Assembly: GCA_009781315.1 (NCBI GenBank)
Contig: WQYI01000001.1
Coordinates: forward strand, 62,001 to 126,000
Length of the DNA: 64,000 bases
Source: Candidatus Endomicrobium embiratermitis
GTDB lineage: Bacteria > Elusimicrobiota > Endomicrobiia > Endomicrobiales > Endomicrobiaceae
Direction: 5' to 3'
Below the pieces are notes generated by a model. It saw nothing but the letters and a program-made list of their open reading frames with translations, searched no databases and was not told the DNA's origin. Position 1 is the first letter of the stretch. Every line of letters begins with the position of its first letter. This document shows, in pieces, positions 1,633 through 55,805 of this stretch. Both the position numbers and the translations under genes were made by a program.

Positions 1633-1635
1633 TAT

Positions 1636-1656: not shown

Positions 1657-1679
1657 ATGACATATGAAGGAAAAATATA

Positions 1680-2750: not shown

Positions 2751-2840
2751 TGAGATGATGGGAAGCTGAGTAAAGACGAAGATTTTGTTGTTTTTGTAGT
2801 TGCTCAACCTCTCAACATCTATTCATCTCACCCTCTGATT
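2741..2840. repeat. Octamer-repeat palindrome
   Basis: The left arm has 8-base units (GATGGGAT, GATGAGAT, GATGGGAA, GCTGAGTA) and begins inside gcvT. The right arm at 2801-2840 has pyrimidine-rich 8-base units (TGCTCAAC, CTCTCAAC, ATCTATTC, ATCTCACC) roughly complementary to the left. The loop contains AAAGAC and a T-rich stretch, as in other copies. Confidence 0.75.
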
Positions 2841-2853
2841 ATAAGGGGATAAA

Positions 2854-3558: not shown

Positions 3559-3560
3559 TT

Positions 3561-5570: not shown

Positions 5571-5580
5571 CGGAGGGCAA

Positions 5581-6453: not shown

Positions 6454-6545
6454 TTACGAATTACGAATCAAAGACAAAGCAAAAAGTATTGTTGTTCTGT
6501 CGTTCGTAGTTGATGCGTAATTCGTAATTTGAAATTCGTAATTGA
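6437..6545. repeat. Heptamer-repeat palindrome
   Basis: Left units (CAATTAC, GAATGAT, TAATTAC, GAATTAC, GAATCAA) include the rmlA stop codon. Right units at 6504-6545 (TCGTAGT, TGATGCG, TAATTCG, TAATTTG, AAATTCG, TAATTGA) are largely complementary. The loop holds AAAGAC and ends TCTGTCGTT. Confidence 0.8.
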
Positions 6546-6595
6546 AAGTACGTCTTAACTTATTTTTAACTTAAAATTTATACGGTCTTAATAAC

Positions 6596-6621
6596 TTTTT
6601 TTTATCATATGATAAAAAAAA
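6596..6621. promoter_or_regulatory. Perfect 26-bp AT palindrome at the start of the first giant gene
   Basis: Eight T, then ATCAT, are followed by the exact complement ATGAT and eight A. The centre coincides with a potential ATG at 6609. The hairpin would bury that codon. An AGGGG follows at once and serves the ATG at 6630. Confidence 0.6.
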
Positions 6622-6629
6622 GGGGCCGT

Positions 6630-9600: not shown

Positions 9601-12600
9601 CTTTATATAGGCGCATTGTCCTAGACAGTGAAAAGAATGCCGAAAATATCGAAAAATATCTTAACGCTAATCCCGGGATTTCGCAAAACGACGTGAAAAT
9701 ATTGGAAAATCTTAAAAATTTATTTGTTTCCGTTGAATACTACGCTCTTGAATATATAAGGACATTGGACAGTTTTGAGAATATTACCATACTAGGCGGC
9801 TATATATTTCCAACATCTTCCATTTTCGAACGTCTGAAAATAATGCCGTTTGTCAGAATTATATTCGGTATGCAGGCGAACTTTAAAAAAGAGAAAGAAA
9901 AGCTCCGAAAGCAAGCCTACAGGCTTTATACGGCAGGCAACGCCGTCAACCATTCATTGTACAATTACAATTCTCTTTTAAGCGAGATAGATGCGTATAT
10001 AAAAGGAAAGGAATATCCGGACGCAAAAACATATCTCGGTATAGAAAAACAATGGGGCGACAGAAAAGCGATTCAGAGAATATTATCGCTGATTATTGCC
10101 GCGCAGTCCGTCATTTCTACGGTTGCGATTGCGTCGTCGGGAGGAAACGCGGCTTTATCCGGCAGTCCTTTGAGTATTGTGGGAGGTTTGCTTTTTTCAC
10201 TCTCTACCGGCATAGGGCTTTCGATATTTTTACACAGGTTTATGGTATTTATAGGAAAACGCAATTCCTTTTATAACGCCAAAATAAAAAAAATTTTTTC
10301 TTTAGAAGGAAGGTATTTTAAAAATCTGTATTACGCTTCGGATGAAAGCGAAATTTTAAAAGCAATGCTTGCGGATTTGTCCGAGCTTGAGTATTTACAG
10401 GAAGAAAACGAAAGCTTTACCCGCGTTAAAATTGTTATTGCCGTCGCAAAAAAAAGAATAGAGGAGTATTTAAACGGAAAAAGAGAAAAAACTCTTTCCG
10501 ATATAAAAGAGGATGTTTCCGAAGTTCTGTCGCTTATTTCGAACGAAGAATCTTTTGAAAATCTTTGTTTGAGCTTAAAAACGAAAAACGCTTATCTTCC
10601 GGACCGGCATACACATGAAGCCGAACCGTCCGAATTTGTTAAAAAGAGCATAGAAGAATCTTCCAGGGAATATTTGGAAAAATGGAAAAATGTTTTGAAT
10701 TCCGAAAATTTTGACGCGGACAAATTTGAGATAATAAGGCAATACGCGCTGCAGCTTGTAAAAATAACGGCTTTTTCTGAAAACTCCTTCAATAATTCGA
10801 AAAACAAAGAACAGATTATTGTTATAATTCAGGATTTTATACATCTTTATAACGATACTTTCGCGAAAATTAACGGGATGCCCGAAGATGAAAGACAAAA
10901 GATATTATTAGAGATAAAAAGTTTTGAGGAAACCGGAAAATACGCCGACTATTATTATAAACTTCTTTGCCACATATTAAGCGCCGACTTATTAAACGGT
11001 TACAGGATATCCGAAAAAACGCCTTTATTTTTTCTTGAAAAAATTAAAATCCTTCCGGCAGTCAGGAATATAATGGGCATAAATTTCGGAATACATTTTT
11101 CAGAGAAAGGTTTTCAAAAAGGATTAAAAGGAATTATCCGTTCCGGAAACGCGCTTATTCCGGGTTTATACGATGAAGGCGCTCTTACTGCATTTTCAAT
11201 AAAATACCTGGATTCAAAACGCAAGCCCGAACGTTTTGACATAGGAATAAACGAATTTTGGAAATCCAGGAAAATGCTTACGAGAATGTTTCCTTTGCTG
11301 TTTTTTTTAGGGAACGTAATAGCAAACGGACTTTATATGCAGCCGGAAAAGCTTTTTATTTCGTTTGTAAGCGGCGTCGGTATCGCGATTTTTATGCATT
11401 GGATTCCGATAATTTACAGTTTAATCGACATGAAAATAAGGAAAGTGATAAAAAAGCCGAAATACGATAAAAAATCGGTAAAAATACCTCCGGAATCCCT
11501 GAGAGACGAAATAATAGGGTCAAAAGCCGAAAACTTAAGACAGATTCCCTACGGAAAAATGCCGGATATAATTTTTATTTCGTCCGATATTGCGGATGAA
11601 AATGTCGGCGATATTAAAAGATTTATGTCGGATATTATCCGAAACGGCAATTTACGGAATTTGAATATAGAGTATATATCCGAGTCCGGTTCCGGAGACT
11701 CGGTTATAGACGTTTTTTCTTATATGAGTTCCGAAGAGTTTGCCTCTAAATATCCGGAAATCGCCGCAAAAGGAATATCGCAGATTAATGCCGTGATTAT
11801 GCATATAGATAACTCAAATTATGAAAATATATTCGACACAGTGGATTTTCCCATAAGCGGAGCAATAACTACTCCTTTTGAAATATCGCTTCTTAATGCC
11901 GTTGGTTTAATACAAAACGGAGACGAAGGCGGGAACATAGCTTTAGCCGATCCTTCATACGTTTATCTGGGAAGTCTGAGCCGTTCCGGAGACGTGACGC
12001 TTTTAGGTTCCGATTTGGATTACGCCCAAATACGTTCACAGGAAATGCCGGTTTTTATAGGAGGGGAACCCGGAGAGCAAAAGCCCGGCGAAAGCATAGC
12101 AAAAAAAATATATAAAACTTTTGATATTGAAAAAATATCAAATATTATTTTGCGTTCGAGTTTGGAAAATATTTTAAAAAACCACGGAGAACACAAAGGG
12201 CAAATATCGGCTTTCTCGGGATTTTCTTCAATATCGCTTGACGCCGCCAAAATGAAATATTTTTCGGAACATATGAGAGAACTAAAGGAGTTTGCCGACA
12301 ACTATAAAGGCAAAAAATTCAAGATAGATTTTTTCAGCCATATAATGATACCTTACGTTATGCTTAACAACGGGGAAAACATAGATACTTATTTTGCAAA
12401 GATGGTGTCCGGCATAAACGACAGGGAATCAAGGAGACAGTATTACGACTTTTTTTACCGTATTTTTGAAATACATAAGAAATTCCATGGCGATCAGGAC
12501 AGAATTCTTGACGTTAATATCGTTCGTCCTCCGGAATCTTTAATCGGCAGGGCTGACCTGGAAAACCCGTATTATTCGGAAATTAAAACGTTTTTGGCGG

Positions 12601-15600
12601 AGTTAAAAAACAAGAGCGCGCCGCCGTCTCAAGAAAGAACCGCGACGGATGTTTTACAAGCTTCCACAGCCGCGGCTAACAATACGGCTAATCCGGTTTC
12701 TCTTTCGACATTAATGACAAATGAGATTTCCAAAAGATTAAGTTCCAAAACAAAGACGCTTATTTTTTTAACGCCCAATCTGAATCCCGATTATATAAGG
12801 CACGCTTCAGCTTCGCAAAAGGCGGGAATAAATTCGATATGCGCCGCTATTGACGGAGAATCCGTAAATTCGCAGGCGTCGGAAATAATAATAAATATTC
12901 CGGTGGAAGACTCAGTTATATCCGCCAAAGCGTCAATAAGCAGAAATCCGGATAATTCGTTTATCGTAAAATTTAGTCCTTTATACGGCGGAGTTATAAG
13001 CGATAAAGAACGGGATATAATAAAAAGCATTTTATCCGGAGACGGCGAAATCGATATGATAAGGAAAAAAATATTCCTGTCCAGAGGAATGCTTGCTTTT
13101 ATAAAAGAAGCCGAATCAGACAGAAAAGATTTAAAAGGCATTGAAAGCATAATTACGGGTTCTTTAAGGAATAATTTGCTCTCGGTCGTTTCTATAGACG
13201 GAAGCGGAGCTTTCGCGCAGCCCAAACTTATAGACGACCGTTTTTATAATGACGAAACTCTTACGAAAATAAATTTTTGCGGTGTATACGTAAATAAAAA
13301 CATAAGCGGGGATTTTCACAGGTTAAGCCAAGATAATAAAAACGCTTTAAGGCTTTCCGAAGATACCGAAAGGTTTAATATTTTTACGGACAATATACTG
13401 AACGTCGGACTGATGTCCGCTTTATTTTCCGACGCTTCTTTTCTTTTGAGTTTTAACAGGAGACTGACCGCGGATATTGACGCCGAAGAATATAAACTTA
13501 TAAGGCTTGATAAAAACGTTTTTTATGCGGATCCGAGGCAATATATAAGCGATTTGTTTGAACTCATAAACGGCTTGTCGTTAAAGAAATCCGAAGGTAT
13601 CCGCGCCGAAGCCGTCCAAAACGCCGCTTTAGGAAAAGTAACGCCTTCAATAACCCTTAATACGGTTTCGGATATAGCAGCTCTTGAAAATCTTGTCGAT
13701 ACAAGAGTAATAAACTCGGTAATCGTTTCAAATTTATTCGCGCAAACCGAAAACGGAAGCGTTATAGGAAATATTTTTAATCCCATGCTTGCCGATTTGC
13801 GCAGGGAAATGGCGGAAATCGGATATAAAGACGGAGGTTTTTTAAGTATTTTGTTTGAAGAAAAATCCGATTTGACAGCATGGCAAAGCGTTAATCCGAG
13901 ATTTTACGCGGCCGGAATCCTTTTGGATTATTTAAAGAACAAATCCGGAGGAGCGCATGAATTTGACCGGTTCAAAAAAAGCCCTTTTGCAGTCAAAGGC
14001 GAAAAATCTTTCGAATATATGACCGCGTTGATTTTGAGCGGAAAAAAGATTATAACCGAAGACGAACTTGCCGAAATTAAATTTGCAAACGCGCAAAAAT
14101 GGGACGCTGCTTTAGAGCAGGTGAAATATATGGAATTTGTGGTTTTTAAGCAGTTTGAAGAAGACGCGAAAAAGATGAAAGCCAAAGGAATAACTCTTAT
14201 CGTAAAAACGAATTTGATGTTTCTTAAAGATTCGGTTGATTTTAACGAAGGGTTTTTTGAAATAAGCAATAACGGCGAAGCCGCGGTTTTGCCTGAATAC
14301 GGTTTAACGCCCGAAAGTTTTTACGTTACGCAGCAGCTTGAATATTTAAGAGACGTTCTGTCCGCCGGCGGATTTTTAATTACCAACATCGGTTCATATC
14401 ATGATAAGGAACGCATATCGGCTTACCTGCGTAAAAAGCTTCAAAACGGCTTAAACGGCAAAATGATTTTGATTTTTGAAGATGAAGAGACGGACGCTTA
14501 TCCTATGGCCGAAAACACTTATATTCTTGCTTCAAAAATTTCGGAAAACCAAAATGTTATTTTAAAAACCGGCGTGAGCGATTCGGTAAGCGTGGAAGAA
14601 TTGCTTGAAGCCGTTAAAAATTGCGGGTCTGACCGCGTAAATATTCCATTGTCGTTTGCCGGCGACGCGGGAATGAAATTTGACGCTTTAAGGGCGGACA
14701 AAAAAAATATATTAAAATCGGCTTACGCGAATTCGTCTCAATATTACGCCAGCGGATACAAAGACGCCGCTAAAAACGGAAAACTTGCGGCTGAGGCTGA
14801 AAAAATCACGGTGTCCGACGAGGAAGATTCGGTTTACAGAATAACCGCAAAAGGAATTCTTATTTTTAACGCTTTATATTCCTATATTAAAGGGGATGAT
14901 AAAAAAGAAAAAGAACTTTTAACGTATCTTTCGGAAAGCGGCGCTCTTTTCGCGCTGGCAAGAAAACATTTAAGAGACTTGGACGCAAAATCCCCTTTGA
15001 TGCGTTATATAGATAATCTCGAATTAAAAAACAGATCCGCGTCTCCGGGCGAAAGGCATTTGTATAATATGCAGCTTATGGGATTTATGAACGGAATAAT
15101 ACATTATAAATACGGTTCCGAGCAATCTTTGTTTAAGGCGAAAGTATCGGCTTTTGCCGATTCTTTTTACATAAAAAATAATTTTTTTAATTTCATTCCG
15201 AGTTCACAAGATACAATGTCTTTGTACGGTCTTTATCTCGGGTCTAAAGATAAAATAAATTTTGTTTTAAAACTGCGCGAATATTTTAAACACTGGGAAA
15301 CGATATACGATAAGGGAAATAATGCGGTCGCATTGTTGTGGCTTGCGGAACAGGCTTCGCTTTTTATGAAAGATTTGGACGCTGCGGAAAAATATGAATT
15401 TGCTTCCAAAATAGTTTCTTATTTTAATAATGCCGTAGATAAATGCGCAGGAACAACAGGTATTTCAGCCGAATACGACGCTTTGTATTTAAACGCTTTG
15501 TTAGTTTGCCGGGATTTTAACAGATTTGCCGGAAATCATCTGAGGATTTCCCATCTTGACGATGAAATAGATAAAGAAAAAAACGCCATAAATGAAAGAT

Positions 15601-16049
15601 ATTTAAATGCCGGCGCCCAAAAGCGTTTTAATCCTGATATCATTTTGTTGTTTTCGCTGAGCGGTCTCAACGGAATTTTTAAAGACGAAGACAGGCAAAA
15701 AGCGATTGAAGATTTTGAGAAACATTCGTTAAACAGCTTCGGCGGAGTCAAAAACGGAAAAGCTTATCCGTATTATTTATATTATTACTCTTTGTTTATT
15801 CCGTATTTGCAGAAAAAATCTCTGCTTGAAACCCTAAGTTTTTATATTGAAGAAAATCTTTCATTGCCGGAGTTTTTTGCCAGAAAGGACGGATTTGGGG
15901 CAGGCGGTAATTTCAGGGACGCGGTCTCGGCGGCGTATTTTACAATGATGTTTGACGGTTTTGAGGATTTGACCGCTAAAATTAAGATTTCTAAAAAGGA
16001 ATTCGGTAAAATGTTTGAATCGGTAAAGGAAATATTAGTCGCGGCGTAA
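6630..16049 (+). CDS. Giant secreted/membrane multidomain protein (3139 aa), DLH-domain family, function unknown
   Basis: A signal peptide (MFFKTKKIISLFVSLSILTVLFF, then DAAAA) begins at the ATG at 6630, chosen over the ATG at 6609 because AGGGG precedes it and 6609 sits in a palindrome. Residues about 55-480 form a domain shared with the giant gene at 48408: INDLHSNPQVQQ (D68, H70), FTEGAPEG near 95 and MGGFHKSTADLF (H446). This layout resembles the ChaN/EreA/TraB-TIKI type, which is inference. A domain of about 270 aa occurs twice (starting near 598 and 1644), with SESG.G.S and FE-SLLN motifs. Hydrophobic stretches lie near 1151-1211 and 1549-1601. The rest is mostly predicted helix with no recognised catalytic motif; it ends LVAA. 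A strong terminator follows. Function is unknown. Confidence 0.8.
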   Translation: MFFKTKKIISLFVSLSILTVLFFDAAAAKNNPDYSIQKKSQSFEILDNFKVIGSSYKPDTPLVIFINDLHSNPQVQQSIYLALKRLDSDGVLSKIFTEGAPEGIVDVSKLIHSDYQKRKKIIDAFLSSGLASGAEVFAVDSGFKDIYGIENWDIYLENLKTAAETYNSGNGFLSGFKEILYANSGKEIRDAIRKISEIHDLSESGLSKNTDYGFLVRNYGEIDKYLKITDLKKRLNEKAAQKDIYSAFEFLKSNVSYKEFININDKYSKSGKEEFLSDFFLLLKNRFNNVLAERSALTELLYLNELKYASNPHTLIYQISLLKKNIIENIPLSYDKEITALYFFLELLDKYASLSVLEEELNELFKNKEIILKTCFKYLPEKDYAGVAKLLSDENILRYYENNIRRDQIFYENIKKNIVKEKINKKAVFNGKTYSCINVAVMGGFHKSTADLFKEDDISFVSLFPVIKESGKSIYKDIMRLSSSALAPPLLSAGVKNNEISALIDFWASFDDIYSKHAVQSVNNRLSEKNIPFKVFIDKEKQIKIKNIKSGKAFFTSIKTFFAKIFARKANVIKKDLTTRKIVAAEYLKTLDSLNGEMPDVVLICFQRAEDIAFYERILEKMRRETGLSNANFKFIHVSESGTGSSFINISEYINSLKSKNEFQSLKNKKWQDLKICAVNIDGLDTGITGRELPFEFNGRKITSFELSLLNGIRACQSFGQNGGLALMNPESVYIGNMIPEGEITIITSMESYGDILDYEMPWIISGESGVKKMYYKFDFDKIKDKLEKKGILERTRNLENGGFRQFETTTGNILFRFQDEFSYSSFFDKMSDLYGRIYSNKMPGGMPHYVDFIQHILIPLLRIKNGEDVLSYFSKMEIDKAFGEFYEEYSSFFDSSLNEEFKNILERISIKTYMQPYSFYASADKPVLPGDAFSKGLGLSVLGEAGNAKTQSNNDFIHSVESEYARLFREISDTKLQEKYYSEERRESVSLYRRIVLDSEKNAENIEKYLNANPGISQNDVKILENLKNLFVSVEYYALEYIRTLDSFENITILGGYIFPTSSIFERLKIMPFVRIIFGMQANFKKEKEKLRKQAYRLYTAGNAVNHSLYNYNSLLSEIDAYIKGKEYPDAKTYLGIEKQWGDRKAIQRILSLIIAAQSVISTVAIASSGGNAALSGSPLSIVGGLLFSLSTGIGLSIFLHRFMVFIGKRNSFYNAKIKKIFSLEGRYFKNLYYASDESEILKAMLADLSELEYLQEENESFTRVKIVIAVAKKRIEEYLNGKREKTLSDIKEDVSEVLSLISNEESFENLCLSLKTKNAYLPDRHTHEAEPSEFVKKSIEESSREYLEKWKNVLNSENFDADKFEIIRQYALQLVKITAFSENSFNNSKNKEQIIVIIQDFIHLYNDTFAKINGMPEDERQKILLEIKSFEETGKYADYYYKLLCHILSADLLNGYRISEKTPLFFLEKIKILPAVRNIMGINFGIHFSEKGFQKGLKGIIRSGNALIPGLYDEGALTAFSIKYLDSKRKPERFDIGINEFWKSRKMLTRMFPLLFFLGNVIANGLYMQPEKLFISFVSGVGIAIFMHWIPIIYSLIDMKIRKVIKKPKYDKKSVKIPPESLRDEIIGSKAENLRQIPYGKMPDIIFISSDIADENVGDIKRFMSDIIRNGNLRNLNIEYISESGSGDSVIDVFSYMSSEEFASKYPEIAAKGISQINAVIMHIDNSNYENIFDTVDFPISGAITTPFEISLLNAVGLIQNGDEGGNIALADPSYVYLGSLSRSGDVTLLGSDLDYAQIRSQEMPVFIGGEPGEQKPGESIAKKIYKTFDIEKISNIILRSSLENILKNHGEHKGQISAFSGFSSISLDAAKMKYFSEHMRELKEFADNYKGKKFKIDFFSHIMIPYVMLNNGENIDTYFAKMVSGINDRESRRQYYDFFYRIFEIHKKFHGDQDRILDVNIVRPPESLIGRADLENPYYSEIKTFLAELKNKSAPPSQERTATDVLQASTAAANNTANPVSLSTLMTNEISKRLSSKTKTLIFLTPNLNPDYIRHASASQKAGINSICAAIDGESVNSQASEIIINIPVEDSVISAKASISRNPDNSFIVKFSPLYGGVISDKERDIIKSILSGDGEIDMIRKKIFLSRGMLAFIKEAESDRKDLKGIESIITGSLRNNLLSVVSIDGSGAFAQPKLIDDRFYNDETLTKINFCGVYVNKNISGDFHRLSQDNKNALRLSEDTERFNIFTDNILNVGLMSALFSDASFLLSFNRRLTADIDAEEYKLIRLDKNVFYADPRQYISDLFELINGLSLKKSEGIRAEAVQNAALGKVTPSITLNTVSDIAALENLVDTRVINSVIVSNLFAQTENGSVIGNIFNPMLADLRREMAEIGYKDGGFLSILFEEKSDLTAWQSVNPRFYAAGILLDYLKNKSGGAHEFDRFKKSPFAVKGEKSFEYMTALILSGKKIITEDELAEIKFANAQKWDAALEQVKYMEFVVFKQFEEDAKKMKAKGITLIVKTNLMFLKDSVDFNEGFFEISNNGEAAVLPEYGLTPESFYVTQQLEYLRDVLSAGGFLITNIGSYHDKERISAYLRKKLQNGLNGKMILIFEDEETDAYPMAENTYILASKISENQNVILKTGVSDSVSVEELLEAVKNCGSDRVNIPLSFAGDAGMKFDALRADKKNILKSAYANSSQYYASGYKDAAKNGKLAAEAEKITVSDEEDSVYRITAKGILIFNALYSYIKGDDKKEKELLTYLSESGALFALARKHLRDLDAKSPLMRYIDNLELKNRSASPGERHLYNMQLMGFMNGIIHYKYGSEQSLFKAKVSAFADSFYIKNNFFNFIPSSQDTMSLYGLYLGSKDKINFVLKLREYFKHWETIYDKGNNAVALLWLAEQASLFMKDLDAAEKYEFASKIVSYFNNAVDKCAGTTGISAEYDALYLNALLVCRDFNRFAGNHLRISHLDDEIDKEKNAINERYLNAGAQKRFNPDIILLFSLSGLNGIFKDEDRQKAIEDFEKHSLNSFGGVKNGKAYPYYLYYYSLFIPYLQKKSLLETLSFYIEENLSLPEFFARKDGFGAGGNFRDAVSAAYFTMMFDGFEDLTAKIKISKKEFGKMFESVKEILVAA

Positions 16050-16091
16050 AATAATCCTGTAACAGCCGTTATTTAAACTTCAAATTGAGAA

Positions 16092-16127
16092 AAGGCTAAA
16101 GGGTCTTTAACCCTAAGCCTTTTTTTG
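16092..16127 (+). terminator. Intrinsic terminator after the giant gene
   Basis: AGGCT...AGGGT pairs with ACCCT...AGCCT around a CTTT loop (one bulge and one mismatch), then seven T follow. It lies 43 bases after the stop codon. Confidence 0.75.
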
Positions 16128-16200
16128 TATGTTTAAATGGATTCCCGATTACAACATTCAGGGACGACAAAAGAAAGGAATTAAAGCTGCTTTTGTCGAA

Positions 16201-16230
16201 TTGTAAAATAAACGTGAAATTTGATATAAT
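16201..16230 (+). promoter_or_regulatory. Promoter for tpiA
   Basis: A TTGTAA -35 element and a perfect TATAAT -10 at 16225-16230 are separated by 18 bases, 34 bases before the tpiA ATG; GGAG precedes the ATG. Confidence 0.55.
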
Positions 16231-16263
16231 TTCTAATCGCTATATTAAAGAAGGAGACGTTCT

Positions 16264-17016
16264 ATGAGAAAACCTCTAATGGCCGGAAACTGGAAGATGA
16301 ACAAGACTGTCGCTGAAGCCGTATCTATGGTAAACGCTTTGAAAACCGCAGTGTCTGACGTTAAAGACGTAGAAATTTTAGTATGCCCTACCTACACCGC
16401 TCTTTATGCCGTAAATAATGAAATAAAAGGAACAAATATAAATCTCGGCGCCCAAAATCTTTTTTGGGAATCCAAAGGCGCTTTTACCGGAGAAATTTCT
16501 CCGTCTATGGTGAAAGATACGGGCTGCTCTTATGTGATTATAGGCCATTCGGAGCGCAGGCAGTACTTCGGAGAAACCGACGAAACGGTAAACAAAAGAA
16601 CTAAAGCCGCTTTCGCGGCGGGTCTTACTCCGATTGTCTGCGTCGGGGAAACTCTCAAAGAAAGAGAAGATAACGTAACTTTTAAAGTCGTTGAAACCCA
16701 GATAAAAGGCGGTTTGGCAAATTTAACCGCGGACGAAGCGTCCGAAATCGTTATTGCTTACGAGCCCGTGTGGGCTATAGGCACGGGGAAAACGGCAACT
16801 CCAGAGCAGGCGCAGGAAGTCCACGCTTTTATAAGAAAACTTTACGCGGAGCTTTATAAAGACGCGTCGGATAAAGTAAGAATTCTCTACGGCGGTTCGG
16901 TCAATCCGGCTAATGTTTCGGAACTTATGAAACAGACGGATATTGACGGCGGACTTGTCGGCGGAGCAAGCCTTGAAGCAGAATCTTTTACAAAACTCGT
17001 CAAATATTCAAAGTGA
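16264..17016 (+). CDS. tpiA: Triose-phosphate isomerase
   Basis: The 250-aa TIM-barrel enzyme interconverts glyceraldehyde 3-phosphate and dihydroxyacetone phosphate. The start (MRKPLMAGNWKMNKT) carries the catalytic Asn-Lys pair, IIGHSERRQYF the catalytic His near residue 95, AYEPVWAIGTGKTATPEQ the catalytic Glu and flexible loop near 165, and ILYGGSVNP and GGLVGGASLE the phosphate-binding end. Length is typical. GGAGACGTTCT precedes the ATG, and the gene has its own promoter. gap and pgk are 28 kb away, so it is not part of a gap-pgk-tpi operon here. Confidence 0.97.
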   Translation: MRKPLMAGNWKMNKTVAEAVSMVNALKTAVSDVKDVEILVCPTYTALYAVNNEIKGTNINLGAQNLFWESKGAFTGEISPSMVKDTGCSYVIIGHSERRQYFGETDETVNKRTKAAFAAGLTPIVCVGETLKEREDNVTFKVVETQIKGGLANLTADEASEIVIAYEPVWAIGTGKTATPEQAQEVHAFIRKLYAELYKDASDKVRILYGGSVNPANVSELMKQTDIDGGLVGGASLEAESFTKLVKYSK

Positions 17017-17045
17017 TTTTTTTAATTTTTTAAATTAAAAAAATC
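17015..17045. terminator. AT-only palindrome after tpiA
   Basis: GATTTTTTTAATTT is followed by its complement, starting at the tpiA stop codon. The stem has almost no GC, so terminator strength is doubtful; it may act in both directions. Confidence 0.4.
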
Positions 17046-17111
17046 ATCCCCGAATGTTTCTATTTGGGATCTGTTAAAACAAAACGCACCGTTTAAGTTT
17101 GGAATAAAACT

Positions 17112-17690
17112 ATGGAAAAAAAACGCGTTACTGTGAATGTTTCCAACAGGCATATTCATTTGTCAAGAGAACATGTCGATGTTCTTTTTGGGAAAGATTA
17201 CGTTCTCACAAAACAAAAAACCCTTATGCAGCCCCATCAGTTTGCGGCAAATGAAACTTTGACCGTAATAGGTCCGAGAAGTGAAATCGACGGCGTAAGA
17301 ATTGTAGCACCTGAAAGAAATCAAACTCAGATTGAAATGACGGTTTCCGACGCGCGCCGTCTCGGAATACCCGTTCCTTTAAGACTTTCCGGCGATTTGA
17401 AAGGCTCTGCGCCCGCGGTTTTAAAAGGACCTAAAGGAACCGTCGAACTTAAAGAAGGCGCGATTGTCGCTAAGAGACATATACATCTTTCCGAAACCGA
17501 CGCGAGTGAAATGAATTTGAAAACAGGCGACATTGTGTCTATAAAAATCAGCGGAGAAAGAGCTTTGACATATGACAACGCAGTGATAAGAGTTGATGAA
17601 AAAAACGCCGAGGCGGAATGCCACTTGGATATTGAAGAGGCCAATGCGGCATTAATAAAAAACGGCGATAAAGCGGATATAATAATATGA
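17112..17690 (+). CDS. pduL: PduL-type phosphate acyltransferase
   Basis: The 192-aa protein is of the PduL family, unrelated to Pta, which interconverts acyl-CoA and acyl-phosphate. The two zinc-site segments are visible: SNRHIHLS near residues 11-18 with QPHQFA near 40, and AKRHIHLS near 120. LFGKDYVLTKQKTLMQPHQFAANE matches the family core. There is no long N-terminal encapsulation peptide and no shell-protein gene in the window, so it is probably a cytosolic acetate-forming enzyme and not a microcompartment one. Its last 4 bases overlap rpiB. Length fits the family. Confidence 0.93.
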   Translation: MEKKRVTVNVSNRHIHLSREHVDVLFGKDYVLTKQKTLMQPHQFAANETLTVIGPRSEIDGVRIVAPERNQTQIEMTVSDARRLGIPVPLRLSGDLKGSAPAVLKGPKGTVELKEGAIVAKRHIHLSETDASEMNLKTGDIVSIKISGERALTYDNAVIRVDEKNAEAECHLDIEEANAALIKNGDKADIII

Positions 17691-18148
17691 ACAAAATTAA
17701 AAAACTGGCGTTTGGGTCGGACCATGCAGCTGCGGAAGTAAGAAATACCGTAAAACAGTATTTACAAAGTATAGGTTATGAAGTCGAGGATTTCGGTTTT
17801 GACGGAGAGGGGGTATGCGATTACCCAGATTACGCGGTCCAAGTCGCCGAGGCTGTCCGCGACGGTAAAGCAGATAAAGGAATTCTTATATGCGGGACGG
17901 GAATCGGCATGTCAATTGCGGCAAATAAAGTGCTCGGAGTTATTGCCGCGCCTTGCTGGGACGATGATACGGCAAGACTTGCCGCCCAGCATAATAAAGC
18001 GGACATTTTATGTTTAGGCTCAAGAACCGCCACGGTAAGCGCGTTATGTTCAAGAATAAAAAATTTTCTTGAAACGGATTTTGAAGAAAGACATTACAAT
18101 AGAATATCCAAAATTAAAGAAATAGAAGAACAACAGTGCAAGAGGTAA
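17687..18148 (+). CDS. rpiB: Ribose-5-phosphate isomerase B
   Basis: The 153-aa RpiB/LacAB-family enzyme converts ribose 5-phosphate and ribulose 5-phosphate. FGSDHAAAE near the start carries the Asp-His pair, DYPDYA near residue 43 is family-typical, ILICGTGIGMSIAANK near 66-81 carries the catalytic Cys and anion hole, and RLAAQHNKADILCLGSR follows near 100. It overlaps pduL by 4 bases (ATGA) and is followed after one base by the TPR gene. With transketolase and deoB it links nucleoside breakdown to the pentose phosphate pathway. Confidence 0.95.
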   Translation: MNKIKKLAFGSDHAAAEVRNTVKQYLQSIGYEVEDFGFDGEGVCDYPDYAVQVAEAVRDGKADKGILICGTGIGMSIAANKVLGVIAAPCWDDDTARLAAQHNKADILCLGSRTATVSALCSRIKNFLETDFEERHYNRISKIKEIEEQQCKR

Positions 18149-18149
18149 A

Positions 18150-18575
18150 ATGAAAAAGCTTTTTATAAGTTTATTTTTCTTTTTTGCGGCGGTTTGTTCG
18201 GTTTGGGCTTCATCCGAAGAGCTTGAAAAGGCTCTGAACCTTTTAAACGCGGGAAAGCCGGACGAAGCGATGAATATAGTAAGCGAGAAACTTAAAACCG
18301 AAACGGATTCCGCCGACAACTATATGGCGATGGGTTTGATACAGCTTGAAAAGGGGAATTACGCGTCCGCCAAAGAAAATTTTCAGCAGGCTTTGCGGTT
18401 AAACAGGAAAATAGTCGCGGCACACTATATGCTTGCGATGATTTACGAAAAAGAAGATAATATCGAGCAGGCGGTAGATAAGTGGCAGAAGATAGTAAAA
18501 TATTCCAAAGACGACACTCTTAAATCGCTCGCGAAAAAACACATAAAACAGCTTAAAGGAGAACTTAGTGATTAA
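18150..18575 (+). CDS. Exported TPR-repeat protein
   Basis: The 141-aa protein has a signal peptide (MKKLFISLFFFFAAVCSVWA) and about three tetratricopeptide units: ALNLLNAGKPDEAMNIV, YMAMGLIQLEKGNYASAKENF and AHYMLAMIYEKEDNIEQAV. Such repeats bind partner proteins. It starts one base after rpiB and overlaps the next lipoprotein gene by 8 bases, so it probably works with that lipoprotein in the periplasm. No specific family name can be given. Confidence 0.75.
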   Translation: MKKLFISLFFFFAAVCSVWASSEELEKALNLLNAGKPDEAMNIVSEKLKTETDSADNYMAMGLIQLEKGNYASAKENFQQALRLNRKIVAAHYMLAMIYEKEDNIEQAVDKWQKIVKYSKDDTLKSLAKKHIKQLKGELSD

Positions 18576-19155
18576 AAAGTTTTCCGTATTTGCTGTTTTC
18601 ATTATTTTTATGTCCTGCGCTTCCAACAGAGCCGTTATAAAACCGGACTATGATTTTGCTTCCGTAAGAACCGTCAGAGTCGGGAATTTTTCATCGGCAG
18701 ACAACTTCGCCAATTCCGGGGACATGGTTCAAAGCGCTTTTATAAGGCAGCTGCTCGCGCGGGGTTTCATGGTTGTCACGGATCCGAATTCTAACGCGGA
18801 TGTTGTGATAGAAGGAAGCGTTACGACATTTAGTCCCGATAGAAGATATCTTGTCCGCATGCCTCCCGACGACGGACGGCGCGGCCATTGGCGCGGTGGA
18901 CACCGCGATATGGTCGAAGTAGGCGGTTCAAATGTTTACGATTTGGGTCCGGCTTTCGGGTTTAACGACGGAAGCAGGGTTATAGCAAGCAATGCCACAG
19001 TCGGGGTTTTTGCTTTTATGACCGATATAAGAACAGGGAAAGTCGTCTGGTCGATATCCCAGACTAACGAAGGACTGGATTTGTCTTCCGCTTTAGACGG
19101 AGTCGTCAGATTTATGGTCAGGACTATACCCCGCGAAAATGTAACGGCGCGATAG
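18568..19155 (+). CDS. Outer-envelope lipoprotein of unknown function
   Basis: The 195-aa protein starts at a GTG overlapping the TPR gene; AAAGGAGAA before it is a good ribosome-binding site. MIKKFSVFAVFIIFMSC is a lipoprotein signal with the acylated Cys near residue 17. The mature part (DYDFASVRTVRVGNF, then FIRQLLARGFMVVTDPNSNADVVIEGSV) resembles the fold of CsgG/LpoB/DUF799-type lipoproteins that start with a moving beta-strand and an 'old gene-product ADVVI.G' segment. That resemblance is inference from pattern only. A Gly/Arg/His-rich loop (GRRGHWRGGHRD) interrupts the domain. Confidence 0.65.
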   Translation: MIKKFSVFAVFIIFMSCASNRAVIKPDYDFASVRTVRVGNFSSADNFANSGDMVQSAFIRQLLARGFMVVTDPNSNADVVIEGSVTTFSPDRRYLVRMPPDDGRRGHWRGGHRDMVEVGGSNVYDLGPAFGFNDGSRVIASNATVGVFAFMTDIRTGKVVWSISQTNEGLDLSSALDGVVRFMVRTIPRENVTAR

Positions 19156-19201
19156 GGGAAATACTTGGCGGTTTATAACAAAAACTGACAGGGAAATAAT
19201 A

Positions 19202-48407: not shown

Positions 48408-51400
48408 ATGATTAAAAAAAGTATTTCAATACTATTAGCCATAGCATTGATTGAGACTGCCGCTTTAGGCAGTTTGCCTCAATCTGTTTTTACGGCGGAT
48501 TCGGAAAATCCGTTATCGTTTTCAGACTTTGGCGTCGTAACCGGCGGAAAAGATTACGGTTCGCCCGGGAAAATAATAATAATACAGGATTTGCACTGTC
48601 ATCCGCAGGCTCAAAAAAACATAAGTTCCATAATAGATATTCTTGACGACAAATTTAAGATAAATAATATTTATCTCGAAGGAGCGCACGGTGATGTTGA
48701 TATTGGCTGGCTTACGGCGATAAAAGATAAAAAACTTTCGGATACTATTGCGCAAAGTTTATTGGAAAACGGGAAATTGACAGGCGCTGAACATTACGCG
48801 TATAAACATAATGCCGGATTGAAACTGAAAGGCATAGAAGATAAAGAAATACATATCGCCAACCTAAAAAGACTTTCTTTGATAACGGAATCCCAGCCGG
48901 AAATAACGGAAATATTATCAAATCTTTCCGTTTTTCTTAATAAAACTCAAAAACAAAATTACGGCGTTTTAAACCGTAAATTGGCTTTGCTTTATGATAA
49001 ACACCGGCTAGGTAAGATTAATTCAATGGATTATTATAAAAAACTTTTAAGATACGCGCGAAATACAAAAGACAATAAAAGCATAGTTAAAGATTTTAAC
49101 GTAAATATTGACGATTATCCCGAGATAGTAAATTTTATAAAGTCGTCCAAAAATTTAAAGAAAATAAACGTAAAGGCAGTTCAAAATCAACTTTCCCAGG
49201 TTTTAAATGAATTGAAAGCCAATGTCCCCTACGGCATGTATTCCGAATTTATTAACAAAACAAATTCGTTAAACAACACTGACGCGTTAGTAAAAGAAAT
49301 TGTGAAATTCAAAGACGGCGGATTTATAGATTTAAGAAAATATAAAGAACTTGATAATTTTATCAACGCTCAAAATTTAGCGTCCGGCGTTAACCCTATA
49401 AAACTTATTGACGCCGAAAGAAAACTTTTAAAGTCGCTGCAGATAAACTTTTCTTCAAGCGAAAAGGAAATGCTGACTGTAATACTTTCTGAATTATTCG
49501 ATCATTTTTGCGGTTATTATCAGGCAAAACTCAGCGTGGACGATTATAAATATATAAAAACATTCGGTATAGAAAATTATAAACATTATTGGGAACAAAC
49601 TACGGGTTTTGAAGATATATCATTGCTCAGTAAATACGACTCATTATTAAAAGAATATTATGAAATTAATATTAACAGAGATAAAATCTTCGCAAAACAC
49701 ATATTTAACGGAAGTAAGCCTGACGGGATAAATTTAATAGTTTGCGGCGGATTTCATACCTGCGGACTTATGGAAGAGTTAGAGGAAAAAGGCATAAGTT
49801 ATTTAGTAATTACCCCAAAAATTACTCAAGACGTTAAAATTGCCGATAAAATATATAAAGAAATGTTATTAAGCGGTTTTAAGACAGATTCTTTTGCATT
49901 GGCCTTGCAGATAATATCGCAGGGGGGAAGCCAGAAACAACTTGTCCAAATTTTAGAAACTATTTTGAGCGAGGAGCTAAAAAGAAATTCTAAATTGAAT
50001 GTGGAACAATTTATAAACGATACGGTAAATAAAATATGCGAAGTTGACGAAACTGAAATTAACAAACATATTGCAATGCCTTATAACCGTCCCGTAAACA
50101 ACGGGGTAAGAATGAACGGAGACGGCAGCATAGAGATAGAAATATATTTTGAAAATACCGGTAAAAAAGAAATTGTTGAAATAAATTCCGGCAAAAACAG
50201 CGACGCGTATATTCCCTATGCGTCGATTTACGGCATGAGATATGCAAAAAGCGCTCCGTTTTGGGAATGGTTATACATCTTGCCGTTTTCAATCCCGATA
50301 ATGCAAAGTAAAAAATTTAAGAGTTTTCTTAAAAGAACGTTTTTACCTGGCTTGGAAATAGACGATATAAACAAAGGCATACGGTATAATAAGAATCTTA
50401 AAATTTCCGATTCTATAGCGAGTTTATTGTTTATTGCGAGTTTTTTACTGCCTCCGGCTATTCCTTTCGCAATAATCTTATACTCGGTATTTAAATCGTT
50501 GTCTTTTGCTTCTTTACATATGAATAAGTTTAATAATAAAAGCGACGGAAAATACATGTCCGTTTTTTTGTCGTCGTTTATATCGTTGCTTCCTCTTAAT
50601 CTTATGTTAATAATATTAGGACCGGCAGGGCTCTTATTTGCCTTTACCGTCGGAATACCGCTGCAGATACTGCTGCATGAAATTTATAACGCATGGCTGG
50701 CGCCGGCAATAGCTGCTTCTTTGCATAGAAATTACGTATACAGAGACGACGAGCTTATTAAATATTTTGTTGATTTCAGAGAAGACATACGCAAGTCCGA
50801 TTTTAATAAAAGCGTATCTTCAAGAAGAATAATGAAGTTTTATACTATGCTCAAACTGTTTAATCTTAACAGAAATAAACAGACAATTAACGAAATATTG
50901 CCGGTTCTGTTTCAAATATCAAAATACTTGTCTCAAAAGAAGAAATCCGGAAATATAGCTCTTCGTATAAACGCGTCGATATCTTCGCAGCTTGAGAATA
51001 TGGATGAAAGCATTGCAAAATATATCGGCTCGGCGGAAAAAAAAGACGACTCATTTTGGTTTTTGTTTATATTGTCGCAAAAAAATGAAAAACACGTTCT
51101 TTCTAAAATAATTGAAAATAATAATCTTGACATAAGATACAGGCTTTATGCGTATTCTCTTTTGAGAAGTTCAAAATTCGATTTGAACGAAAGCAATAAA
51201 AAAGAGCTTACCGACAAAGCCGGACAACTTATACGTAATTTTGAATGGAAAAAAGATTTAGGCCACATATATAATGACACTATATTTTACAATGAAGAAT
51301 TACAGGCTTATGTTACGGCTGTTTATCTGATAATGGTTGCGGATCATCCCTCGTTTATAGGTAGAGAAAATCCGGCTATATTTAAAGCCATAACGGAAGC

Positions 51401-54400
51401 AAGGTTTGACGCCAAATACCGCAATGCGGACTCTTCTCTTTCTTTCGGAAAAGATTATTTTATGCAGGAAAGAAACCAGGCAATATTCCCCGAAATTATT
51501 GCCCATGAGCTTGCGCATATCCATCTTTTTAAATTAAAATTTTTACCGATAAAAAAAATCGCCTATTTATTATTTTTCCTGCCTTATAATAATAAATTGG
51601 TGCGAAAGATCGTGCTTAATCTTCAAAAATCCATGATTCACGAGTTGTATGCCGATGTTGCCGGATATTTGCTGGCTTCTTCTACCGGAAGAAACCCTGA
51701 AAAATTTTATGATTCCGGAATAGCTCCCTATCTGGGGAAGAATATCTCGGATTTTTCTGAAGAACCGGAAGAACATGCCGGAGCGAGAGTTCAGTTCAAC
51801 CAGCTTATAAATATGCTTAGACATGACCGCCGTGAAATCGATTATTATAAATTTTCCGAAATTTTTAACAGAAGGCTCAGAAGAAATATAAAAAAATCGG
51901 ATTTATATTTCAAAGAATTTTTCTTTGAGCTTTCGGAATCATACCTTACGCGCGAAGGATATAGGGCTGTAGGCGAGCCTGAAGATTTGAAGAATAACGA
52001 TATTATTACCACGCAGGAACTATTGGATTCTTTTCGCGCGTCGGTATTCGGCGACGAATATGCCGGAATTGCTCCGTTTTGGGAATGGGTTTATATGCTT
52101 CCCGGGGTGAGTTTCTTTGCGGAAAGCAGATTGTTTTCAAAAATTCTGTCTAAAACTTTATTGAAAGATAAAAGCGAAGAAGAAATAAATAATACGCTGA
52201 GAACAAACAGAATTGCAAAAACTTTAGATATAGCCGGAAGCGTTGTTTTAGGGGTTTGCGCTTTAAGCGGCTTGGGAATTGCCGGGCTTGCCGCGTTTAT
52301 GCTCACGAGAGCTATTATTTTCTCTTCGGTCCATAAAGGCTATGACTGGAAAGCGCATTGGAAAGATAAGGCTTTGATAAGCGTTTTGCTGTTTTTTGTT
52401 CCGTTTGCCGTTGTGTTTGCCTCTTTGCAGTTTTTCAGCCTTAATTTTATTCCCGTTATTGCCGCAGGATTCTCTTTAAATATTCTTTTACATTCTGTTT
52501 ATAATAAATTTATAGCTCCTGCCTTGTCTTTGAAAAAAGCTTCCGTATTTAAAAATCTATCCCAGGAAGAAAAACAGCAATTTGTCGCGGATATTATAAA
52601 ATTAAAATTGTCGTCTAAATTAAATATCGGCGTCGAAAATATTAATATTAACGCGGTAGATAATGATAGATACTATAAAAAGGAAACGTACGCGGAGTTT
52701 TTTTATAACGGCGTAAAGTTATATAAAGATGAAAGCGGCAAATTTATTTCGGATATTCCGAAAACGTTTTTGCTGTCTCTTTACGGACTTAGCGGCTCCG
52801 GACGCGAAACATATATTGAAACTTTCGTTAAAAATCTTATTGATATTTACAATATAGAACAGCAGGAAAGCAGCCATAAAAAAATAAGTGATTTTATAAA
52901 CGGTCTTGACGGCGGTATCGCGGATTTTGCAGTAACCGCATTGCTGGAGTTTGCGGCTTCTTCCGCAGTTACCGTTCCGTCGTTTTATCTTGTTGAAAAC
53001 ATGTCGAGAGAAATTTATACTTCCTCTTTCAATTTATCGCCCGTGAATTTCGACATGATGTATTTTATAAGCAAAATAGAAGAACAAATTAAAGAATTTG
53101 ACGACGATATAAAAAATTTAATACTTTTCCAGTGCATAGAATTTACCGGTTATGTTTTACAGAGCCAGACTTGGCTTTCTCCGGCGCTTTTTGACGGGCA
53201 ATATGGCTATATGCAGAATATTGTAAATGAAAGTTATGAACGAGAGCTGTCCAATACCAAGAGTTTTGACGGGGTTTTTAAAATAATGCTGTCTAATCAT
53301 AAAGAAGTACGTATGATAAAAACAAAAGAAGCGGCTCTTTTCGAGTATATAACAATAAAAAACAACGAAAGAGGTTCTTCGTTGATAATTCCCGACAGTA
53401 TCGTTTCTAATTTCAAAAATATCGATATTGCTTCTCTTGAAGATAAGGTTTATTCTTCTTATGATTTGGAAGAGAGAACCGCTTCGGTTATAAGGCAGAA
53501 AAGTTCACGCGGTATAACTGACAGATATCTCATCATAGACTGTTCCTCAACGGAAAATATCGCAGCAATTGCCGCGAAAATTGACGAATATAATAAAAGC
53601 GTTCCCGAAAAACTCAAAATCAAAGAAGTTATGCTTTATAATGCGGATTTAAAAGATTACGTTCTGTCGTATAAAGACTTTACTTTTTCAACGGCGTATG
53701 TATTCGATTTTTCAAAATTTGTATTTGATGATAAAAATAAAGAGAAGATATTAAGTTTATTCACGAATATTCCCGCGGTTTATTCCGGTTCGGATGATTT
53801 TGTTTTGAATTACGGCAGCAGACTTGATAATTTCACTAAACATTATTTATATATGCTTATGGATATAGATTTAATTCGTCACGGAACTCATCACGTAGAT
53901 ATGAAAATCGCAAAACGCATTGACAATGCCCCTGTGCAAATGAAAACCGCAAAGGAATATAAAGATTTATATGATAAGCTTATAGTTTCGCTTAAGAAAT
54001 ATAATTATTTTGACGGCGCCAAACAAATATTTTATAAATATGTGACGGAAACCGCTTTACGAAACCGCGGCAAACTTGACGCTTTTATCGGCGGCAATGA
54101 CATAACCGCGTCCGTTTTTAACGGTATTATTGACGAATACAGAACTCTTTTAAATTTTATGTTTTATTTTGAGTGGTCTGACCGTAAAGACATGTTTGAC
54201 TTTGTCTCGGAAGCGGAGAAAGACGCTTTGTCTGAAAAATTCAATGAATTTAGCTTAAAGCCTGAAAATTCTTACGCAATCCCGTTTGAGCAGGACTCAA
54301 TTTTAGTCGCAAGCGGAATGTCTGCGGTAAAAACAATAGCGGCTATGTTTGTGTCGGAAAATATTTCAAAAATTGCTTTCGGGAAAAATGTTTACTATGA

Positions 54401-55805
54401 GAACGCCGATATGTTTAATTCAATAAAAGCTTTCGCAAATCCCGTCAGGTTTTACGAATATAATACGCAGGAAACATTAAATCTTGACGCTGAAGCGATA
54501 TTTTTGGATTTAATTTCAAACTCCGTGCGTAAAGTAAATTTCGATACCGAAGATATTCCCGTTGCGGACATAAAGCGCATTATTTCCGAATTATCGAAAA
54601 AAGAATATAAAACGCCTTTTTATGTATGCATAGACAACAGCATGTATCCGTCTTTTCAGTTTGCCGATATTTTAAACGGAATAGACTTGCCGGATAATTT
54701 TTACATAATTGTCTACGGAAGTATGCAGAAAATGCATCAGAGGGGACTTGAAATAGTAACTTCGGGTTTTCTGACTTTAATATCCAACGGGCATAATCAA
54801 AATACAATTTTAAATAAATTGAAAGACGCTGTTAAGCTTACTTCTTCCGATATCGATACTTTCAGATATATCGTATTAAAAGAATTTATCGAAAATAATA
54901 ATCTTGATCGGCATTCAAGAAAATTAAACGACAATGCCGCCGCCGCGGCTCGGGCGTTAAAGTCGATATCTTCTCTGTTTGGAGACGCTTTTGAGGTATT
55001 GCATCCGTCATTATATTCCGGAGAACAAAGGGAAATATGGGAGAAAAACAGAAGTCCCGGCATTCCTTTTATTTTCATAAGGGATTTATCGTTTAAAAAA
55101 AACATAAGCGGTTTTCTTGAAACCCTTTATCCGATACTTATAAGGGCTTCTTTCAACCCGATGACAAGAGACAGTTACGGCTTTAATTCCCTTACTACGG
55201 TGCATTATGGCTTTAGTACGATTAGAATTAATGTTGGCATTAATGATGAATCGCGATTGCGGGAAATGCTTAATATTTTTTCCGAAGCAGCTTATGATTA
55301 TTTTATGCAAACGATATACAAAGATAGCCCCGCGAATGAAATGATAGAAAGAATATATGCGTATGCGCAAGATGTTTGGAGAAGCGAGAAATCGGATGAA
55401 TTAGCTTATAATTATCTTCTATCTTTAAAAGAGACGCATGCAATGTCTGAAATAAATGTTTTAAAAACTTTTAGTATATGCAATAAATTCGGAAAGCCTG
55501 TGCCTGAAATTATAAAATCAAAAGCTGCGGATATATTGAGTAAAGAACTTTCGCAATTTTTAAATGATGACGAACGCGCGGTTTATATTGAAGCTTTGGC
55601 ATATTCCGACAAGCCGAGAGGGGAAACTATTAAAGAATTAACCGATCTTTTTGTAAATGCTAATTCTTCGGACAGAGCTGCGGCGGCAAACGCTTTGACA
55701 ACAGTATTAGCCCGTCAGCCGGTTAGTTATAGATCCGGCAGTTTGGATCTTAATAATGCGGGCAGTTCTGGAAAAATGATTGCCAGTATGTTAGCCGCGG
55801 CATAA
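48408..55805 (+). CDS. Giant multidomain membrane/secreted protein (2465 aa) with DLH, HELAH and PLP-fold-like regions
   Basis: A signal-like start (SISILLAIALIETAALGSL) precedes a domain shared with the giant gene at 6630: IQDLHCHPQAQ (D61, H63), IYLEGAHG near 88 and CGGFHTCG (H450). Residues about 616-790 and 1222-1400 are two copies of a membrane module that begins PFWEW and has several helices. Between them are HELAH (1033-1037) and HELYADVAGY (E1079, D1083), an M48-like zinc-protease pattern. Residues about 1960-2290 resemble Cys/Met-metabolism PLP enzymes: ASGMSAVKTIA, YGSMQKMHQRG (K2108), RINVGIND. The end is helical (MIASMLAAA). The combined function is unknown; the domain names are inference from motifs. 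Confidence 0.8.
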   Translation: MIKKSISILLAIALIETAALGSLPQSVFTADSENPLSFSDFGVVTGGKDYGSPGKIIIIQDLHCHPQAQKNISSIIDILDDKFKINNIYLEGAHGDVDIGWLTAIKDKKLSDTIAQSLLENGKLTGAEHYAYKHNAGLKLKGIEDKEIHIANLKRLSLITESQPEITEILSNLSVFLNKTQKQNYGVLNRKLALLYDKHRLGKINSMDYYKKLLRYARNTKDNKSIVKDFNVNIDDYPEIVNFIKSSKNLKKINVKAVQNQLSQVLNELKANVPYGMYSEFINKTNSLNNTDALVKEIVKFKDGGFIDLRKYKELDNFINAQNLASGVNPIKLIDAERKLLKSLQINFSSSEKEMLTVILSELFDHFCGYYQAKLSVDDYKYIKTFGIENYKHYWEQTTGFEDISLLSKYDSLLKEYYEININRDKIFAKHIFNGSKPDGINLIVCGGFHTCGLMEELEEKGISYLVITPKITQDVKIADKIYKEMLLSGFKTDSFALALQIISQGGSQKQLVQILETILSEELKRNSKLNVEQFINDTVNKICEVDETEINKHIAMPYNRPVNNGVRMNGDGSIEIEIYFENTGKKEIVEINSGKNSDAYIPYASIYGMRYAKSAPFWEWLYILPFSIPIMQSKKFKSFLKRTFLPGLEIDDINKGIRYNKNLKISDSIASLLFIASFLLPPAIPFAIILYSVFKSLSFASLHMNKFNNKSDGKYMSVFLSSFISLLPLNLMLIILGPAGLLFAFTVGIPLQILLHEIYNAWLAPAIAASLHRNYVYRDDELIKYFVDFREDIRKSDFNKSVSSRRIMKFYTMLKLFNLNRNKQTINEILPVLFQISKYLSQKKKSGNIALRINASISSQLENMDESIAKYIGSAEKKDDSFWFLFILSQKNEKHVLSKIIENNNLDIRYRLYAYSLLRSSKFDLNESNKKELTDKAGQLIRNFEWKKDLGHIYNDTIFYNEELQAYVTAVYLIMVADHPSFIGRENPAIFKAITEARFDAKYRNADSSLSFGKDYFMQERNQAIFPEIIAHELAHIHLFKLKFLPIKKIAYLLFFLPYNNKLVRKIVLNLQKSMIHELYADVAGYLLASSTGRNPEKFYDSGIAPYLGKNISDFSEEPEEHAGARVQFNQLINMLRHDRREIDYYKFSEIFNRRLRRNIKKSDLYFKEFFFELSESYLTREGYRAVGEPEDLKNNDIITTQELLDSFRASVFGDEYAGIAPFWEWVYMLPGVSFFAESRLFSKILSKTLLKDKSEEEINNTLRTNRIAKTLDIAGSVVLGVCALSGLGIAGLAAFMLTRAIIFSSVHKGYDWKAHWKDKALISVLLFFVPFAVVFASLQFFSLNFIPVIAAGFSLNILLHSVYNKFIAPALSLKKASVFKNLSQEEKQQFVADIIKLKLSSKLNIGVENININAVDNDRYYKKETYAEFFYNGVKLYKDESGKFISDIPKTFLLSLYGLSGSGRETYIETFVKNLIDIYNIEQQESSHKKISDFINGLDGGIADFAVTALLEFAASSAVTVPSFYLVENMSREIYTSSFNLSPVNFDMMYFISKIEEQIKEFDDDIKNLILFQCIEFTGYVLQSQTWLSPALFDGQYGYMQNIVNESYERELSNTKSFDGVFKIMLSNHKEVRMIKTKEAALFEYITIKNNERGSSLIIPDSIVSNFKNIDIASLEDKVYSSYDLEERTASVIRQKSSRGITDRYLIIDCSSTENIAAIAAKIDEYNKSVPEKLKIKEVMLYNADLKDYVLSYKDFTFSTAYVFDFSKFVFDDKNKEKILSLFTNIPAVYSGSDDFVLNYGSRLDNFTKHYLYMLMDIDLIRHGTHHVDMKIAKRIDNAPVQMKTAKEYKDLYDKLIVSLKKYNYFDGAKQIFYKYVTETALRNRGKLDAFIGGNDITASVFNGIIDEYRTLLNFMFYFEWSDRKDMFDFVSEAEKDALSEKFNEFSLKPENSYAIPFEQDSILVASGMSAVKTIAAMFVSENISKIAFGKNVYYENADMFNSIKAFANPVRFYEYNTQETLNLDAEAIFLDLISNSVRKVNFDTEDIPVADIKRIISELSKKEYKTPFYVCIDNSMYPSFQFADILNGIDLPDNFYIIVYGSMQKMHQRGLEIVTSGFLTLISNGHNQNTILNKLKDAVKLTSSDIDTFRYIVLKEFIENNNLDRHSRKLNDNAAAAARALKSISSLFGDAFEVLHPSLYSGEQREIWEKNRSPGIPFIFIRDLSFKKNISGFLETLYPILIRASFNPMTRDSYGFNSLTTVHYGFSTIRINVGINDESRLREMLNIFSEAAYDYFMQTIYKDSPANEMIERIYAYAQDVWRSEKSDELAYNYLLSLKETHAMSEINVLKTFSICNKFGKPVPEIIKSKAADILSKELSQFLNDDERAVYIEALAYSDKPRGETIKELTDLFVNANSSDRAAAANALTTVLARQPVSYRSGSLDLNNAGSSGKMIASMLAAA

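Follow-up and report, generated by a model that had tools for sequence, protein, structure and literature searches.

A predicted thermolysin-like zinc peptidase between two apparently CPBP-derived membrane modules in a giant protein of Candidatus Endomicrobium embiratermitis

We analyzed a 64,000-nucleotide stretch of the Candidatus Endomicrobium embiratermitis genome (Elusimicrobiota; contig WQYI01000001.1, positions 62,001 to 126,000; hereafter the window), in which the open reading frame (ORF) at 48408-55805 encodes a protein of 2,465 residues. It is one member of a family of giants centred on Endomicrobium. With moderate confidence, we read it as a chain in which a soluble zinc peptidase of the gluzincin type, with a thermolysin fold, sits between two four-helix modules derived from CPBP/Rce1-type intramembrane proteases and acts at the cell envelope. 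The 2,465-residue protein matched no Pfam or NCBIfam model above the model's cut-off, and no earlier description of a zinc protease between two membrane modules was found in open-licence PMC papers.

A HExxH domain lies between two copies of one module

The first-pass annotation, made from the sequence alone, had proposed a zinc protease held between two copies of a membrane module, and this architecture stands. The APFWEW motif begins at residues 616 and 1222, as described there, and both copies continue with the (D/E)(D/E)IN..(I/L)R.N turn and the (I/L)LH.(I/V)YN....AP motif. The two modules (~158 residues) are homologous: they share 29% identity over 177 columns in blastp (E 8e-19), their Smith-Waterman score is 181, whereas none of 1000 shuffles exceeded 74, and a profile from either copy recovers both, together with modules in other giant ORFs. 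Where "four or so" helices per module had been expected, hydropathy gives three clear transmembrane (TM) segments, and the AlphaFold model shows four long helices. HELAH (1033-1037) and HELYADVAGY (from 1078, with E1079) do lie between the modules, but their starts are 45 and not 42 residues apart.

The same domain order, namely N-domain, module, HELAH domain, module and pyridoxal phosphate (PLP)-like domain, was found in full-length relatives from two other genomes (G001 and G023). An orthologue in a third genome (G003) ends at a contig end, and a second contig of that genome carries a related chain, possibly the remainder of the same protein. Among named genomes, the nearest relatives are those of Candidatus Endomicrobium macrotermitis (67% over the central region), followed by Endomicrobium sp. 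Gx485_bin123 (40%) and Candidatus Endomicrobium labiotermitis (38%). The orthologues read HELAH or HELGH, and HExxH itself is invariant in 20 aligned copies.

The central domain is predicted to adopt a thermolysin-like fold

In the 20-row alignment of copies from Endomicrobium relatives, most of them just 15-28% identical to the window copy, all rows keep H1033, E1034, H1037, L1040 and E1079, and 19 keep H1123 of the EEHxxAR motif, the last having a gap. Profile searches of the loci analyzed found the protease domain in 24 stretches, nearly all of them in giant ORFs (one lacks the second motif); of 119 genomes from across the phylum, 21 carry the gluzincin domain, mostly in giant ORFs. In one genome of genus g8 (G063, contig 4, 38950-39776), a gluzincin copy is broken by several stop codons.

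Residues 601-1390 (790 residues) were modelled with AlphaFold from a 21-row alignment, and the region of HExxH and E1079 was modelled confidently (predicted local distance difference test, pLDDT, ~90-97). The top nine VIA-align matches of this model were all M4 metallopeptidases (thermolysin, neutral protease, vibriolysin and aureolysin; Z 9.7-11.0), in alignments of 219-239 residues that run along positions 294-614 of the model and so cover nearly the whole thermolysin chain (best Z 11.0, 232 residues). The NADSSLSFG stretch resembles the NAFW...MVYG edge strand of thermolysin, and by motif we take N1006-A1007 to be the equivalent of thermolysin N112-A113; E1079-xxx-D1083 presumably corresponds, again by motif, to E166-xxx-D170. 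The M4 profiles PF01447 and PF02868 gave no match to the domain, and it is for this reason named thermolysin-like here and not a member of M4; M4 proteins were sought in the host's class and none was found. Based on conservation and the model, the domain is probably a soluble, active gluzincin. Two other candidates were discarded: a SprT-like identity, for which only a sub-threshold match of 12-14 bits around HExxH was obtained, and karyopherin/HEAT-like structural matches (Z 7-9, around residues 760-890), set aside as usual for helical stretches.

The protease had been called M48-like (HtpX/Ste24-like) in the first-pass annotation, with a membrane-embedded active site. HExxH and the downstream Glu of ExxAD are indeed present, in a layout common to gluzincins in general; weak M48 profile matches were obtained for 2 of the 20 members (best E 0.056), and a hydrophobic stretch lies between HELAH and HELYAD in the orthologue group of the window protein. 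This stretch is, however, confined to that group and absent from most homologues; hydropathy places no TM segment between the two motifs, and the active site holds no conserved membrane hairpin. PF01435 matches three other genes of the genome but not the window ORF, and a profile comparison with these three genes aligns just 21 columns around HExxH, whereas the thermolysin match is nearly full-length. On the profile and hhalign tests, membership of M48 is not supported, and we consider a membrane-embedded protease of this type very unlikely.

The PFWEW modules appear to derive from CPBP/Rce1-type domains

The first-pass annotation had overlooked the likeness of PFWEW to the EExxxR motif of CPBP/Rce1-type domains, of which it seems to be a decayed form. 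In relatives, PF02517 (Rce1-like) matches above its curated cut-off within giant ORFs of 1,117-7,386 residues (in G006, G009, G017, G019 and G041), and these modules carry WEExxxR or EExxxR, as in aPvWEEfvFR...FSYAH...GHSMYN; the window modules read APFWEWlYILPF...FASLH...LLHEIYN. Invariant in all 16 PFWEW modules are W-E-W, a Pro, an Asp (D668/D1274, 36 residues before the His of FxxxH), the F and H of FxxxH, a further Pro, and the H and N of HxxxN. Intact EExxxR (motif 1) was found only in sister giants, WEW standing in its place in 16/16.

In hhalign, the PFWEW modules match the CPBP-positive giant modules with E 2.5e-6 and a set of eight EE-type modules with E 7.6e-6 (reversed controls, 0.2-0.48), and the WET-type modules of the window's own genome match the EE-type modules with E 4.4e-11. 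These alignments span the part from FxxxH to HxxxN; PFWEW is equated with WEExxxR from its location and its resemblance. An iterated profile search picks up window module 2 (1.7e-23, a value that iteration can inflate) as well as WET and WEE forms. Canonical CPBP proteins of the class gave no significant hhalign match when compared directly with the window modules, so the link runs through the intermediates in the sister giants; a PDB sequence search with the modules gave no match. The gluzincin repeatedly occurs alongside CPBP modules, for instance as CPBP-gluzincin-CPBP at locus L035. The profile evidence thus supports a CPBP descent of the PFWEW modules, whose motif 1 appears to have decayed. 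The di-glutamate of this motif has been described as needed for CPBP activity (PMC9298176; see also PMC11980579), which makes activity of the modules doubtful; they are possibly catalytically dead.

The giants share a head and a tail

Also overlooked at first pass was that the protein is a member of a large giant-protein family. The N-domain, which forms its first ~480 residues, has 17 matches in the window's genome and is matched in 35 of 60 relatives, often 14-25 times per genome and in ORFs of up to 12,027 residues. It is concentrated in the host's family and order. None was found in one single-contig genome of the same genus, nor in several genus g8 genomes, as if the giants had been lost from the latter in genome reduction. 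Its invariant residues include D.H, EG and GG.H. No Pfam model matched above cut-off (ChaN gave a weak match in 2 of 25 N-domains), and no match was found in a PDB sequence search. The N-domain model (pLDDT 85.7) had EreC, the EreA-like structures 2rad/3b55 and HopBA1 as five of its six best matches, with Z 6.8-7.5, a coherent list, yet below the level that excludes chance; the resemblance of the predicted fold to EreA/TIKI is suggestive.

Most giants start with a signal-peptide-like stretch. At the other end, an (I/V)LxAA tail or a close variant closes 22 of 28 giants and none of 195 other ORFs (200-999 residues) of the same loci, and is likely a shared C-terminal signal. The other giant of the window (6609-16049, 3146 residues), in which no Pfam domains were found, has a divergent N-domain copy (E 1.8e-91) and the tail (16029-16046).

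The PLP-like domain of the window protein recurs in two neighbouring paralogues on contig C2. The K and D of its putative cofactor site are invariant in nine sequences, and a single PDB match was obtained (E 0.0054). The features of the protein are listed in Table 1.

Table 1 Features of the 2,465-residue giant protein, with positions in the window.
Feature	Positions	Strand	Basis
Giant ORF, 2465 residues, ATG start	48408..55805	+	ORF listing
Signal-peptide-like N-terminus (MIKKSISILLAIALIETAALGS...FTA), residues 1-31	48408..48500	+	Sequence, hydropathy, similar starts in other giants
N-domain common to giants (DLH...EG...GGFH), residues 33-517	48504..49958	+	Predicted fold nearest erythromycin-esterase/TIKI-type proteins
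PFWEW module 1, apparently CPBP/Rce1-derived membrane module, residues 605-763 (E620 of WEW; D668; F700xxxH704; H757xxxN761)	50220..50696	+	
Thermolysin-like zinc metallopeptidase domain (predicted), residues ~894-1205	51087..52022	+	Alignment, model, structural matches
N1006-A1007 of NADSSLSFG, proposed substrate-binding edge strand	51423..51428	+	Presumed equivalence, by motif
HELAH, residues 1033-1037 (H1033, E1034, H1037)	51504..51518	+	Sequence, alignment
E1079, proposed third zinc ligand (ExxxD)	51642..51644	+	Alignment
H1123 of EEHxxAR, proposed catalytic or fourth-ligand His	51774..51776	+	Conservation; putative role
PFWEW module 2, residues 1211-1368 (E1226; D1274; F1305xxxH1309; H1362xxxN1366)	52038..52511	+	
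PLP-dependent-enzyme-like domain, residues 1800-2292	53805..55283	+	Fold type I motifs SGMSA, IDNSMYP, SMQKMH, RDSYGF
C-terminal tail SMLAAA, instance of the giants' (I/V)LxAA tail	55785..55802	+	

Enzymatic domains of sister giants

A sister giant of 5,387 residues in the same genome (L050, contig 18, ORF 1460-17620), with a signal-like start and an ILTAA tail, fuses five glycolytic domains: TPI, GAPDH, enolase, a phosphoglycerate mutase-like domain and class II aldolase. The enolase motifs are intact (QEFM, GDEGG, GDD, SHRSGE, IKTG), as are those of TPI (NWK, GHSE, EPVW) and GAPDH (SCTTN) and the RHG and HLDH motifs; the genome also has a separate, normal standalone enolase.

Further sister giants of this genome were found on contig 3 (L053, ORF 2284-17949, minus strand) and contig 2 (L055, ORF 1583-11452), and one of this pair carries PGK with weak phosphohexomutase-like and methyltransferase parts. 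In the PPDK-bearing sister giant, which also has a gluzincin, the PEP-utiliser domain precedes the ATP-binding domain, an unusual order. After their N-domains, L054 (contig 1, ORF 910-19179, 6,090 residues) has several AAA_5 (dynein-related) ATPase domains and a VWA-like stretch, and L051 (contig 10, ORF 826-4677, 1284 residues) has B12-binding and radical SAM domains.

Proposed mode of action and alternatives

In the mechanism that we infer, the chain would be exported or envelope-facing and anchored in the membrane. Zinc would be held by H1033, H1037 and E1079, with E1034 as the base, and the gluzincin would cut external peptides, or would process its own chain and other giants. Four helices per module would place the head, the protease and the PLP part on one side of the membrane. 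The CPBP-derived modules would most likely act as anchors, because their EExxxR motif has degenerated into WEWxYxLP, although FxxxH and HxxxN are kept; residual catalysis may nonetheless be possible.

Several results count against this proposal. By the positive-inside rule, the positively charged loops beside the modules would face the cytoplasm. The window modules do not match PF02517; their second Glu and their Arg are missing, and there is an insertion of ~45 residues. For the protease, no Pfam or PDB sequence match was found beyond the HExxH region (best PDB E 0.018), and Foldseek with the 790-residue model gave no significant match, so the fold assignment is founded on VIA-align and the motifs.

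The modules could alternatively be active CPBP-type proteases with an altered motif 1, in which E620/E1226 or D668/D1274 replace the di-glutamate; the chain would then hold three proteases in tandem and process itself or its sisters. This would fit the invariance of the first Glu, the Asp, both His and the Asn in 16/16 modules, and in Myxococcus a CPBP protease carries out C-terminal sorting (PMC11980579), the giants sharing a C-terminal tail. The need for the di-glutamate (PMC9298176), the loss of the second Glu and the Arg, and the ~45-residue insertion between WEW and the next helix argue against it, however, and make it distinctly unlikely. It also seems unlikely to us that the protein is an adhesin-type surface giant whose protease is vestigial and whose modules are unrelated four-helix anchors, their FxxxH/HxxxN likeness being due to chance. 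In favour of this reading, surface or adhesion roles are the usual interpretation of Omnitrophota giants (PMC10066038), and the modules gave no significant match when compared directly with canonical CPBP alignments; but the profile link to the Pfam-positive CPBP modules of sister giants is significant, its reversed controls are clean, and the strict conservation of the protease residues speaks against a vestige.

Extending the proposal of an envelope gluzincin between CPBP-derived anchors to the whole family, Endomicrobium and its relatives might export families of giant multi-enzyme chains of a common design (signal peptide, EreA/TIKI-like head, CPBP-derived anchors, gluzincin, a payload of up to most of lower glycolysis, and the (I/V)LxAA tail), with the CPBP and gluzincin parts processing or sorting them. 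Such a polyprotein-like, membrane-organised metabolism outside the cytoplasm is a rather doubtful idea, and we know of no bacterial system like it. Five glycolytic enzymes behind a signal-peptide-like start do raise the question of where metabolism occurs in these termite-gut bacteria.

Comparison with known systems

Omnitrophota are known to encode giant ORFs, and Elusimicrobiota often have huge proteins; for the most part these are described as poor in annotated domains and of obscure function (PMC10066038, PMC11573180). In a paper devoted to the comparative genomics of Endomicrobia (PMC11257099), the terms "giant", "large proteins", "protease" and "surface protein" do not occur in the main text. 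Like the giants of Omnitrophota and other Planctomycetes-Verrucomicrobia-Chlamydiae (PVC)-related bacteria (PMC10066038, PMC11573180), those of Endomicrobium are very long ORFs with predicted TM helices and few annotated domains; unlike them, they form a defined family with a common N-domain, a common tail and enzymatic payloads. Obscure parts of giant ORFs are here resolved into a conserved zinc peptidase, modules of apparent CPBP descent, a common head and a common tail, and so become testable protein families.

With the erythromycin esterase/ChaN/TIKI superfamily, the N-domain appears to share the D.H, EG and GGFH motifs in an alpha/beta frame, but it differs in its weak Z scores and a large helical insertion. 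Compared with CPBP/Rce1-like proteins (PF02517), giant modules of relatives pass the cut-off, FxxxH and HxxxN are invariant, the helix order is like that of TM4-TM7, and the window WEW resembles the WEExxxR of sister modules; the window modules differ by the missing second Glu and Arg, by the insertion and by their tandem arrangement in one chain. The protease domain has HExxH and ExxAD in common with M48 (HtpX/Ste24), but it matches no M48 profile, its active site lacks a conserved TM hairpin, and its predicted fold matches M4 instead. With thermolysin it shares the predicted fold over nearly the whole chain, HExxH, the ExxxD third-ligand helix, the NA edge-strand motif and a later conserved His, whereas it lacks an M4 Pfam match, is ~12% identical, has a longer spacing from H1037 to E1079 (42 residues) and sits inside a giant membrane-anchored chain.

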